Positions 19,668 through 22,023 of a stretch of 64,000 nt of DNA are shown piece after piece. Made by a program: the position numbers and the translations under genes. Under the pieces are notes generated by a model that did not search any database, was not told where the DNA came from, and saw nothing but the letters and a program-made list of their open reading frames with translations. Numbering within the stretch: the stretch's first letter is position 1; each line of letters begins with the position of its first letter. Source of the DNA: Sinorhizobium arboris LMG 14919 (GTDB taxonomy: Bacteria; Pseudomonadota; Alphaproteobacteria; Rhizobiales; Rhizobiaceae). The stretch is from assembly GCF_000427465.1 (NCBI RefSeq), contig NZ_ATYB01000014.1, positions 1,449,570-1,513,569 of the forward strand, written 5' to 3'.

Positions 19668-19748
19668 CGGTCGCCCGCTACAGCCGTGCCTTGACTTGGT
19701 GTGCCAAATGCCGAAAGCTCAGAGCGATCGGGCATTCTGGGAAGCGCG

Positions 19749-20339
19749 ATGGCGAAACACCTGCTCCTGTTGGCGGCACTCACGAACGCCACCGTCATCC
19801 TCGCCCAAACGCATGCAGAGGCGGGGCCGCTCGCCGACGCTGCGGCGAGGGCCGAACAGCAGGCGAGTTCCGGCGATGCCGCCGGTGCGCAGGAAACGTT
19901 GCGCAAGGCCGTGAGCGACTTTTCGCAAACCCTGCCCTTCTCCATCGGCAAGGCCGTCTTCGTCACGGCAGCACCGGCGGGCTTCGCGATGTACGAGCCG
20001 AAGCCCGCCCCGGTATTCGAGACGGGCGAAACGCTCATATCCTATGTCGAGCCCGTGGGACTTACCTGGAAGGAGGCAAGCGACAAGGGCAAGCTGGAGA
20101 CTCGCTTCACGGTCGACTTCGACATTCTCAACCCGAAGGGAGAAGTCCTCGCCAGCCAGAAGGCGTTCGGCGACTTCACCTTCAAGGGCTATCTGCGCAA
20201 CCAGGAAATCTATGCAACGCTGAGGATCGACGTAGCCGGGGCCCCATCCGGAAACTATGTGCTGCGCTACCGCTTCAACGACATCAACAGCGGCAGGAGT
20301 GCAAGCGTCGACCAGCCCTTCGAAATCGCCGGCCCCTGA
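19749..20339 (+). CDS. Exported protein of unknown function
   Basis: A 196-residue protein from the ATG at 19749 (MAKHLLLLAALTN), with a Sec signal peptide ending near HAEAG. The mature part begins with an alanine/glutamate-rich helix (LADAAARAEQQASSGDAAGAQETLRKA) followed by a beta-rich domain (FDILNPKGEVLASQKAFGDFTF; GNYVLRYRFNDINSG) that looks like an immunoglobulin-like fold. No family name is recognised. It lies 81 bases after trkH and just before the split tRNA-Leu locus. Confidence 0.7.
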   Translation: MAKHLLLLAALTNATVILAQTHAEAGPLADAAARAEQQASSGDAAGAQETLRKAVSDFSQTLPFSIGKAVFVTAAPAGFAMYEPKPAPVFETGETLISYVEPVGLTWKEASDKGKLETRFTVDFDILNPKGEVLASQKAFGDFTFKGYLRNQEIYATLRIDVAGAPSGNYVLRYRFNDINSGRSASVDQPFEIAGP

Positions 20340-20418
20340 GAGATTGCCGACCTCAGCCAGCAGCACGCCAGGATCGCAAGGCGGAGCACTCGGGCCGGAA
20401 GGAGAAATCAGGCGGCTC

Positions 20419-20474
20419 TGGTACGGACGACGGGAATCGAACCCGTACGGTTTCCCGAGGGATTTTAAGTCCCT
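20419..20474 (-). pseudogene. 3' part of a split tRNA-Leu(UAA) gene
   Basis: On the minus strand this segment contains the anticodon arm (GGGACTTAAAATCCC), a variable arm (CGGGAAACCG), a perfect T-arm (ACGGG/CCCGT around TTCGATT) and the acceptor 3' strand CGTCCGT followed by ACCA. The 5' acceptor strand and D-arm are missing; upstream sequence is unrelated. The missing portion is found at 21,835-21,877, separated by an insertion. Joined across the shared 16-bp core, the two give a complete tRNA-Leu with G1-U72 as its only unusual acceptor pair. Confidence 0.88.
20459..20474 (+). repeat. Attachment core, first copy
   Basis: GGGATTTTAAGTCCCT on the plus strand, identical over 16 bases to 21,835-21,850; flanking bases on both sides differ. 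It covers the anticodon loop and stem of tRNA-Leu(UAA) and is itself almost palindromic. Confidence 0.9.
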
Positions 20475-20563
20475 AAATCCGAGGTTTGCCAAAAGCCAGC
20501 GGGTTGAAAAGACTAGCTATTTAGCATCACCTATTTTTCCACAGGGGCACCGAGTGACACGCA

Positions 20564-20587
20564 TTGTCACACGGGTTTGTCACACGG
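20564..20587 (+). repeat. Two direct repeats, possible integrase arm-type sites
   Basis: TTGTCACACGG occurs at 20,564-20,574 and 20,577-20,587. The core TTGTCAC recurs three times in the same orientation near the other end of the insert. Repeated short sites inside both ends of an element are what arm-binding domains of tyrosine integrases recognise. Confidence 0.55.
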
Positions 20588-20632
20588 AAAGCCGTTGTAT
20601 TTCCGAGAGATTTCGCTAAAGAGGAACCCGGA

Positions 20633-20718
20633 GCGGACGTGGCGAAATAGGTAGACGCAAGGCACTTAAAATGCCTCGGGCAACGCCCGTGCGGGTTCGA
20701 TCCCCGCCGTCCGCACCA
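20633..20718 (+). tRNA. Complete tRNA-Leu (anticodon TAA) carried by the element
   Basis: An 86-base class II tRNA. The acceptor GCGGACG pairs perfectly with CGTCCGC; the D-arm is GCG/CGC; the anticodon stem AGGCA/TGCCT encloses CTTAAAA; the variable arm is CGGGC/GCCCG; the T-arm GCGGG/CCCGC encloses TTCGATC; CCA is encoded. It lies between the two parts of the disrupted tRNA-Leu(UAA) gene, on the opposite strand, and differs from that gene by a swapped base pair in the anticodon stem. It can supply the UUA-reading tRNA that the insertion destroyed. Confidence 0.96.
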
Positions 20719-20722
20719 ATGA

Positions 20723-21001
20723 TTATGCCTTGGAGAGCTTCCCGGCGAAAACGGCCGTTATCAAGGCCCAGAAGGCGCTACCACTGTAAAGCAGCAATCC
20801 TTGAGCAAAGTAAGAGAAGTCACCGTCTCCGGTGCCGTAGACCCAAATAAAAGCAGCCGCGATTGGAGCCGCCAGAAACCCTATGCCTAACCGCAATTGC
20901 TTCTCTAGTTCGGTAACCTTCCCCAATATCCATGCGAGAAGAGAGGCGATAAGGAAAACCGCAACAGCGCCGCCAGCCAGTTGAGACAATACCGCGATCA
21001 T
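20723..21001 (-). CDS. Small membrane protein carried by the element
   Basis: A 92-residue protein with hydrophobic segments at about residues 5-25, 40-56 and 65-86, a short charged connector (TELEKQLRLG) and a tyrosine/glycine-rich loop (YGTGDGDFSYFAQG). The ATG at 21,001 has GGGGA upstream on its strand. The stop codon lies four bases from the 3' end of the element tRNA, convergent with it. The family is not recognised. The intact frame in an otherwise decayed element suggests selection or recent arrival. Confidence 0.6.
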   Translation of the reverse strand: MIAVLSQLAGGAVAVFLIASLLAWILGKVTELEKQLRLGIGFLAAPIAAAFIWVYGTGDGDFSYFAQGLLLYSGSAFWALITAVFAGKLSKA

Positions 21002-21149
21002 TTCATTCCCCGCTTCTTAGAATTACCACCATTGAGAGAACTCTCTCGGCCTACGCGAGGTATCTAGCCGTGCAGTTGCGGGGCTGGCAAGACAAAAAAG
21101 GCCCCGGCGAAGCTGCCGAGGCTCGAGTTCTGGGAAGGTGCCGAGGGGG

Positions 21150-21671
21150 TCAGTCGTTGGCGACCACCGGGAGCTTCGGGACAGCCGGTTCGAGCGCCGC
21201 TGCGACGTCGTCGAGGGCCGAGGGCGACAGCTTCATGTACCGCTGGGTCACCGAGAGGTTCGAGTGGTCCATCCATTCCATGATCCGCTTGGCGTCGATC
21301 CCGCCATCGCCAAACGTGACGCGCAGGTCTGCCGGAAGATGTGGAACGGCTGTGAGAACTTCGCGTACTTGCCGCCGAGCTTCTCGTAGACCACGTTCAG
21401 GTGGCGACGGCATGTGTCGAGGTTCAGGTCACCGAAGGGCCGCGCAGGGTCCTTGCTGTCGATCCGACACTGCGCCAGGACGGCGCGAACACGAGCGGTC
21501 GGTGGGATGTACGACGTGCGCCCCAATACCTGCCAACCAGCGGCTCGTCCCGGCGTGGAGGTCCATGTCGAGGCTGGAGCAGACATCACTGGCCACGAAC
21601 CACGGCCCGTCGTCGAGCCGTACCGTGCGAATATCCGTGTCCTTGAACTTGAAGAGAGAGGGCGTGTTCAT
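21150..21671 (-). pseudogene. Bro-N fragment joined to a frameshifted tyrosine-integrase C-terminus
   Basis: The minus strand starts with an ATG at 21,671 behind AAGGAA and encodes FKFKDTDIRTVRLDDGPWFV, the opening of phage Bro-N/antirepressor proteins. The homology then breaks. In a second frame comes the integrase segment RPFGDLNLDTCRRHLNVVYEKL and FHIFRQTCASRLAMAG (box II, HxxR). After a frameshift near 21,300 follows DAKRIMEWMDHSNL with VTQRYMKLSP, which holds the box II histidine and nucleophilic tyrosine. The recombinase N-terminus is missing. An internal deletion in a former prophage or island explains the joint. Confidence 0.75.
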
Positions 21672-21685
21672 GGTCATTTCCTTGG

Positions 21686-21723
21686 TTGTCACAGGAGGAT
21701 TGTCACAGGAGGTCCCTTGTCAC
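21686..21723 (+). repeat. Three direct repeats near the right end, possible arm-type sites
   Basis: TTGTCAC occurs at 21,686-21,692, 21,700-21,706 and 21,717-21,723, the first two extended to TTGTCACAGGAGG. They share orientation with two copies near the left end. The repeats lie upstream of the Bro-N start, which is also where an operator would be expected. Confidence 0.55.
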
Positions 21724-21834
21724 CAAAATCCCTGCCTCAGTGGAGAGAAATCAGAAACGGCCCGAACCCCTTAGGGATCAGGCTTAAATTTCAGTGCTTT
21801 GGGGAATGATTGCCTTGGTGGAAGGGACGCTTTG

Positions 21835-21850
21835 GGGATTTTAAGTCCCT
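21835..21850 (+). repeat. Attachment core, second copy
   Basis: GGGATTTTAAGTCCCT, identical to 20,459-20,474 and forming the anticodon arm end of the tRNA-Leu 5' part on the minus strand. Confidence 0.9.
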
Positions 21851-21877
21851 TGCGTCTACCAGTGTCGCCGCGTCCGC
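21835..21877 (-). pseudogene. 5' part of a split tRNA-Leu(UAA) gene
   Basis: The minus strand reads the acceptor 5' strand GCGGACG, positions CG, a D-arm with GCG/CGC and TGGTAGA, and the anticodon arm, then runs into element DNA (CAAAGCGTCCC) that cannot form a variable arm, T-arm or acceptor. The tRNA is therefore truncated at the anticodon arm. A promoter remains directly upstream, so the fragment is probably still transcribed. Confidence 0.88.
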
Positions 21878-21885
21878 CCGCAGCC

Positions 21886-21914
21886 TAAATCAAATACTTA
21901 GTCGATTCATTCAA
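21886..21914 (-). promoter_or_regulatory. Promoter of the interrupted tRNA-Leu gene
   Basis: TTGAAT (minus strand, 21,914-21,909), 17 bases, GATTTA (21,891-21,886), placing transcription start at about the first base of the tRNA (21,877). The match to a housekeeping sigma promoter is moderate and the spacing ideal. Confidence 0.55.
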
Positions 21915-21993
21915 GGGAATGTTTTGCGAACGGCGTTTCCAGGCAGTCCAGCGGGATCGCAGGCGCAGTGCCAGGGTTTTACGCCATGCGAAA

Positions 21994-22023
21994 GCGCCGT
22001 GCGTCTGAAATGACGCACGGCGC
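21994..22023 (-). terminator. Strong hairpin downstream of the glycine-rich protein gene
   Basis: GCGCCGTGCGTC and GACGCACGGCGC form a perfect 12-bp stem with a six-base loop. On the minus strand it is followed by TTTCGC and lies 45 bases after the stop of the gene at 22,068-22,370. Confidence 0.6.

Follow-up and report, generated by a model that had tools for sequence, protein, structure and literature searches.

How does a bacterium get along when a mobile element has cut one of its own tRNA genes in two? This question is raised by a locus of Sinorhizobium arboris LMG 14919, which was studied within a stretch of 64,000 nucleotides (contig NZ_ATYB01000014.1, positions 1,449,570 to 1,513,569), referred to here as the window. 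At this locus the two parts of a broken host tRNA-Leu(UAA) gene are separated by an insert of 1,360 bases (1.36 kb), and inside the insert lies a complete tRNA-Leu(UAA). We consider it very probable that the insert is the decayed remnant of a temperate-phage-like element which was integrated by a tyrosine integrase, and that the spare tRNA that it brought is now a gene of the host.

Both parts of the broken gene include an identical 16-bp core, GGGATTTTAAGTCCCT (AGGGACTTAAAATCCC in the tRNA sense), which belongs to the anticodon arm of tRNA-Leu(UAA) and places the bacterial attachment site, attB, within the host tRNA gene. This core is the sole exact match of at least 9 bp between the two 140-base flank stretches compared. 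Joined together, the two parts give 83 nt that ARAGORN calls a tRNA-Leu(UAA), with three differences from the intact 83-nt gene of a congener (genome G020). In this congener the site is empty. Positions 20340-20474 and 21835-22000 of the window align to positions 2089-2221 and 2206-2372 of its locus (L036), so that the two alignments are contiguous and overlap by exactly the 16 core bases, and the tRNA-Leu(UAA) is uninterrupted. No tRNA was called by ARAGORN at either insert junction and the host gene was therefore not rebuilt, which is best explained by the attachment (att) core being only 16 bp long.

The original prediction had read the locus as a minus-strand tRNA-Leu in two parts with the same core at both junctions, which make a tRNA-Leu(UAA) when joined and which neither junction rebuilds, and it had looked to relatives of the strain for an empty site. 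The flank comparison, the ARAGORN calls and the uninterrupted gene of the congener agree with it in all these respects. The insertion without reconstruction, offset by a tRNA that the element itself carries, is in this way supported by the empty site, by the shared core and by a parallel locus in another genus that is described below.

The replacement tRNA, which had also been correctly placed inside the insert on the other strand, was found both by ARAGORN and with the Rfam model (Table 1). It is only 87% identical to the host gene of the congener and its anticodon arm reads AGGCA-CTTAAAA-TGCCT, against AGGGA-CTTAAAA-TCCCT in the host gene. What survives of the integrase is C-terminal, amounts to about a third of the protein and is frameshifted. 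Its two pieces match an integrase from a provirus recorded in IMG/VR (G443/L339) with 81% and 86% identity; one of them matches PF00589 with an E value of 0.0038, which is below the cut-off, and the other has no Pfam match. No gene for a T7-like RNA polymerase or for structural proteins was recognised among the open reading frames (ORFs) of the insert, four of which were scanned with Pfam. A search of the insert against phages and plasmids gave matches of tRNA size only, and viral contigs searched with the pattern of the altered anticodon arm of the window gave no match.

Table 1. Features of the interrupted tRNA-Leu(UAA) locus (positions are those of the window).
Feature	Position	Strand	Basis or remark
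Host gene flanking the insertion site	19701..20339	+	Used as bait for the locus in relatives
Broken host tRNA-Leu(UAA), 3' part, core included	20419..20474	-	Alignment with the intact G020 gene (L036)
16-bp core repeat, left copy	20459..20474	not assigned	Anticodon arm
Element DNA from left junction to replacement tRNA	20475..20632	not assigned	Common to G019
Complete replacement tRNA-Leu(UAA)	20633..20718	+	ARAGORN; Rfam RF00005, 59.1 bits
92-aa ORF, membrane-like by eye	20723..21001	-	No Pfam match
Tyrosine integrase relic, residues 228-351 of a 351-aa relative	21153..21523	-	In two frames
ORF with weak Bro-N-like start, possible phage antirepressor remnant	21429..21692	-	PF02498, E 0.0058, below cut-off
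16-bp core repeat, right copy	21835..21850	not assigned	Anticodon arm
Broken host tRNA-Leu(UAA), 5' part, core included	21835..21877	-	Flank comparison

We propose that a temperate-phage-like element would have been integrated by its tyrosine integrase, with the anticodon arm of the chromosomal tRNA-Leu(UAA) as the target, and that the cell would have survived by means of the complete tRNA-Leu(UAA) carried by the element, the anticodon stem of which is unlike the att core. Afterwards the integrase and nearly all other genes of the element would have been lost and the spare tRNA would have turned into a host gene. The spare is presumably functional and its loss presumably harmful.

The integrase points to the kind of element involved. 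The close relative of the window relic (L339) matches 116 phage records, all with less than 60% identity. The best of these is Rhizobium phage Pasto (33%), and phages Lo5R7ANS (29%) and TRX32-1 (27%) are also among the 15 matches listed. Pasto and Lo5R7ANS, both placed on record under Autographiviridae, have a tRNA-Leu past the integrase, at a distance of about 2 kb in Pasto (UAA) and of about 1.4 kb in Lo5R7ANS (UAG). In Pasto the tRNA and the integrase are on opposite strands, and the genes that separate them include small putative membrane proteins; in the window, too, the tRNA is opposite the integrase strand, with a small ORF between the two. Among the viral contigs, the integrase of the window type was found in its own record only. 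The window insert is a relic and hence is not filed as a member of the Autographiviridae-like temperate phages.

The parallel locus (G243, L358) belongs to a different genus of the same family. By our reading it contains a broken 5' part, an integrase related to the window type (45%, with one stop codon), a complete tRNA-Leu(UAA) and then the 3' part. The anticodon stem of this spare tRNA reads GCAGA against ACGGA.

Within the genus itself, the tRNA query matches all of the 33 genomes that were surveyed, and at least four of these combine a broken native tRNA-Leu(UAA) with a different copy: the genome of the window (G000), G019, G031 and G015. Genome G019 agrees with the window in junction, spacer and tRNA and retains the final residues of the same integrase; its native 5' part was not found. 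Between G000 and G019 the spare tRNA is identical at 85 of 86 positions, against 140 of 159 in the spacer and 50 of 62 in the dead 3' part, and this higher conservation suggests selection on the tRNA. In G031 the core is of 12 bp according to our comparison, and the tRNA is a different one, with the same orientation as the broken gene; apart from the tRNA, the comparison made showed no insert DNA in common with the window. Ordinary integration, in which the gene is rebuilt, also takes place in the genus, as in G002 and G008, where the gene is intact at one end and its 3' portion is repeated at the other. In two further genomes a tRNA-Leu(UAA) located near the same flanking gene is only 77% identical to that of the congener (L099:716-801 in G030 and L100:1501-1586 in G023), possibly representing another replacement or an att-resistant allele.

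Every tRNA match of at least 80 nt was read in the four genomes with a replaced copy, and no intronless tRNA-Leu(UAA) besides the inserted ones was found. A single tRNA-Leu(UAA), the inserted copy, was found in each of G019 and G031. In G015 one copy alone was found, and a group I intron separates its U34 from its A35 (U34^A35); what survives of the broken gene, a 3' part, is 5 kb away. Genome G000 has the inserted copy together with a second, intron-split tRNA-Leu(UAA) on another contig, C5. The original prediction had reasoned that, if this host had a single tRNA-Leu gene with the UAA anticodon, loss of the insert without precise excision would be lethal and the element thereby self-retaining. 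The supposition of a single gene fails on the C5 copy, so that G000 may or may not depend on the inserted one. The 1.36-kb relic is, moreover, too decayed to retain itself; there is no working element left to retain, and the spare now looks like a gene of the host. In G019 and G031, dependency on the inserted copy is plausible, as it is in G015 on the intron copy, these being the only copies found.

Some observations weigh against our reading of the window and have to be set beside those that support it. One is the C5 copy, a second tRNA-Leu(UAA) candidate in the same genome. Another is that UUA is a very rare codon (2 of the 11,110 codons in 21 ORFs of the window), so that the lethality of losing the tRNA cannot be assumed; the loss of a UUA-reading tRNA might be tolerated, for which bldA in Streptomyces is a precedent. 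In the parallel locus ARAGORN also calls the 5' part (L358:87-179) a tRNA-Leu(UAA), which we read as broken since it is without T-arm and CCA and a matching 3' end is found after the spare. Furthermore, no intact copy of the window element was found, and the close provirus record (G443/L339, 42 kb), which may be cut at its end, has no tRNA match. A related integrase (E <= 1e-40) is present in only three of 394 genomes of the family, in two of which there is no tRNA within 1.5 kb on each side.

The second tRNA-Leu(UAA) of G000 opens a wider subject. The C5 copy is interrupted at U34^A35 by a group I intron (RF00028, 50.5 bits, with a gathering score of 50), and its exons are read jointly as tRNA-Leu(UAA) by ARAGORN when introns are allowed. 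It sits in a decayed element with pieces of a relaxase and of an integrase. A region of 466 bp around the intron tRNA is 92% identical between C5 and G015, and the fact that no other tRNA-Leu(UAA) was found in G015 suggests that the intron tRNA is spliced there. With ARAGORN run without introns, intron-split genes such as L019 and L095 were missed.

RF00028 matches at E <= 0.001 in 38 of the 394 family genomes; eight of the 38 had no locus in the first set, three of them being added later and five left out. The 30 RF00028 loci comprise 14 tRNA-Leu(UAA), 14 tRNA-Arg(CCU) and two tRNA-His, the last probably misread. Two further intron-split tRNA-Leu(UAA) genes were seen in G259 and G380, bringing the family genomes with such a gene to 16. 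The broken native gene is also present in seven of them: G015, G259, G394, G419, G173, G249 (partial) and G316 (on another contig). We considered whether all 16 are replacements and rejected this, nine having no broken native gene linked to the intron tRNA. One of these nine is G000, where the native gene is broken by another element.

The fullest of these elements is that of G419. Its 407-aa integrase seems to be intact and lies about 150 bp inward of the junction, and the 3' part of the host gene is 38 kb away. It also has the intron-split tRNA-Leu(UAA), a relaxase, a coupling protein, and TIR and Fic genes. At the left junction of this element (L166:1046-1112) the resemblance to a tRNA extends past the core as far as the T-arm, where it ends, and the G316 junction likewise retains a T-arm. 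Both may be decayed forms of the rebuilding type, and in G419 the decay looks as if it had followed the gain of the spare. The broken 5' part beside the intron tRNA of G173 (L170:10240-10820) resembles the foreign tRNA of G031 and not the native gene, as if the replacement had itself been replaced.

The intron tRNA also matches 1286 of 72,556 plasmid records, 1261 of them over at least 80% of its length. It adjoins an aac(3)-IId module in all three resistance plasmids inspected (L131:6009-6307, which is NC_004464.2, pCTX-M3; L132; L133), its identity as tRNA-Leu(UAA) being our own reading since ARAGORN misread the anticodon. By eye it is like the spare of G259 and G394. Among the viral contigs of IMG/VR, 74 stretches (L265-L338) match the 5' exon and the start of the intron, and ARAGORN finds an intron-bearing tRNA-Leu(UAA) in 65 of them.

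Named genomes were then scanned with the G419-type integrase and the best 80 of 192 relatives were used. In 64 of the 80 loci (35 UAA, 29 CAA) the integrase is preceded, at a distance of about 130-260 bp, by a broken 5' part of a tRNA-Leu. These calls come from a pattern that requires the anticodon loop to be uninterrupted and that would miss native genes already provided with introns. The 16 loci without a target call were left out of the counts per target. The spare tRNA-Leu, where found, is usually placed about 50-300 bp after the integrase.

At UAA targets the spare is split by an intron in 31 of the 35 loci, including four partial matches (L201, L202, L219, L224). No intron match was found in the other four (L188, L247, L205, L225), of which L205 and L225 end 141 and 112 bases after the integrase, respectively. 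The 29 CAA targets are accompanied by an intronless tRNA-Leu(CAA) in 12 loci and by an intron-split spare in two, and by no spare in 15. These 15 loci, without a spare in the stretch examined, are found among L217-L264, and 13 of them are Acidobacteria by record title. A UAA anticodon can also read UUG, so that CAA targets may do without a spare, and their spare-less loci fit with tRNA-Leu(UAA) reading this codon.

Of the 16 loci without a target call, six lack a tRNA-Leu spare and show, just upstream, a tRNA for Met, Arg, Phe or Thr that is complete, as though it had been rebuilt; the remainder includes one with an intron spare, six with an intronless tRNA-Leu and three with neither. Three plasmid-borne relatives of this integrase (54-59%; L364-L366) have no tRNA-Leu, with or without an intron, within flanks of 3 kb, and the spare cassette is therefore not universal in the family of the G419-type integrase. 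A group I intron was recognised by Rfam at the gathering score in seven of 16 loci tested and below it, with E <= 1.4e-5, in seven of the eight remaining loci that were re-run; L265 gave none and L301 was left out. The spliced anticodon stems pair in all of 102 parsed genes, with only Watson-Crick pairs in 98 and nine different arms, a count taken from genes called by ARAGORN, which favours paired stems, and containing two genes that look misread.

What could the intron be for? The core shared by the two parts narrows to CTTAAAA in G259 and G394 according to our reading, and the intron is placed inside it, between CTT and AAAA. Altered stems or introns may keep the integrase off the spare. We tentatively suggest, with rather more doubt than confidence, that a family of elements found mainly in Alphaproteobacteria and Acidobacteria breaks tRNA-Leu(UAA) and that the intron inside the 7-bp crossover core hides the DNA of the spare from the element's own integrase. 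Splicing would restore the tRNA, selection on the element would keep the intron, and hosts such as G015 would depend on a ribozyme to read UUA. The alternative, for which the chances are not far from even, is that the intron is a mere passenger of a captured tRNA-Leu(UAA) lineage and protects nothing; we regard the passenger and the shield as about equally likely.

The two explanations can be confronted on the integrase tree, where target and intron undergo 14 changes each. Against a passenger, the two switch together: among five independent pairs on starred branches, most random pairings give four that go the same way, none opposite and one undecided (median p 0.125). This sign test on the well-supported branches is not significant, which leaves room for the passenger. 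The association of the intron with the UAA target over the loci is strong (Fisher p 1.7e-11) with relatedness ignored. The link between intron and UAA target is consequently not proven by the tree.

The stems of the spares also bear on both explanations. Of 30 readable intron spares (three unreadable rows, L207, L219 and L236, being left out), 9 have a 5' anticodon stem identical to that of the broken host gene, against 0 of 12 intronless ones, with a Fisher p of 0.04 and a Mann-Whitney p of 0.003, both uncorrected for relatedness. This speaks against a mere passenger and is suggestive of two ways to make the spare a poor target, an altered stem or a core split by the intron, although it does not show them. 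On the other side, altered stems suffice without an intron in the 12 CAA cassettes and in the window, and the two intron spares that accompany CAA targets both carry a UAA-type 5' exon, so that the intron goes with the UAA tRNA. Moreover, cyanobacterial and plastid tRNA-Leu(UAA) genes have an intron at the same place, U34^A35, with no integrase involved.

The intron cassettes lead back to the nature of the window element, which might have been an integrative conjugative or mobilizable element, and not a phage, making use of the same spare-tRNA trick. The G419 element (L166/L167) combines at the same target an integrase, a MobA/MobL relaxase, a coupling protein of a type IV secretion system and an intron-split tRNA-Leu(UAA), and C5 of G000 has DNA in common with G015 around the intron tRNA as well as in further stretches. 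However, the integrase piece of the window falls in the family that occurs in T7-like phages. The G419-type integrase is nearly absent from phages (five distant records of E. coli phages) and was not found in viral contigs, and it gives no match to the window insert at E <= 1. We therefore consider a conjugative or mobilizable origin of the insert unlikely. That the inserted tRNA arose by ordinary duplication of the host gene, or arrived later and independently, with the host gene broken in some other way, would suit the lack of any complete surviving element and the frequent movement of tRNA genes, but is highly improbable given its divergence from the host gene of G020 (87%) and its altered anticodon stem, the DNA from junction to tRNA that also occurs in G019, and the same arrangement adjoining a related integrase in G243.

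Understood as the remnant of a temperate-phage-like element, the insert of the window shows the end of a tRNA-dependent integration, in which the spare has been domesticated, the rest has decayed and the host has exchanged one of its core tRNAs for a foreign one. Should the intron cassettes function in the proposed way, they would offer a testable reason for the presence of group I introns in the anticodon loop of tRNA-Leu(UAA), and would be a case of a ribozyme protecting a gene from a recombinase. On the practical side, a tRNA needed by the cell can seem absent when ARAGORN is used without its intron setting.

The mechanism seen in the window is already known as tRNA-dependent lysogeny, with rhizobial cases from 2021 and 2024, and the relic alone adds one member to it. 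In the actinobacteriophages (Guerrero-Bustamante and Hatfull 2024, mBio, PMC10865867) there is likewise a tyrosine integrase, an attB over a host tRNA gene, an element tRNA of the same isotype and a core too short to rebuild the gene (8-17 bp in the rows seen of that paper, 16 bp in the window). The insert of the window differs in being a decayed relic in an alphaproteobacterial chromosome and in involving tRNA-Leu(UAA), with a need for its tRNA that is conjectural. The word intron occurs once in that paper, in its reference list.

Related systems are found among the rhizobial phages. The vTRX32-1-like temperate phages of Rhizobium leguminosarum interrupt a host tRNA-Leu and bring a whole tRNA-Leu without the att motif, which in the view of the authors replaces the function and prevents super-integration (PMC8631192). 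They share with the window the interrupted tRNA-Leu, the replacement and a homologous integrase (27%); their 12-bp motif lies in another tRNA-Leu, UAG by our reading, whereas the window has tRNA-Leu(UAA) as its target and no phage genome left. The Lo5R7ANS-like prophages of Sinorhizobium meliloti replace tRNA-Leu(UAG) with a divergent isoacceptor (PMC11476347). As in the window, an inactivated host tRNA-Leu is replaced by a divergent one borne by the element, but the isoacceptor is another and the prophages are still recognisable; the word intron is absent from the main text of that paper. The phiLM21-like prophages of S. meliloti have the same target as the window, tRNA-Leu(UAA), but rebuild the host gene, and tRNA-dependent lysogeny was not observed according to the authors (PMC12429752).

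Intron-split spares were not met among the papers listed by our literature searches, which covered open-licence PMC papers only. Group I introns in bacterial tRNA genes are reviewed in PMC3984707, where the phage introns then known are in protein-coding genes, and a paper on the tRNA-Leu(UAA) intron is in the reference list. The class of intron is the same as in the present survey. The difference lies in the setting, the split tRNA being here the cargo of integrative elements that break the intact gene of their host.

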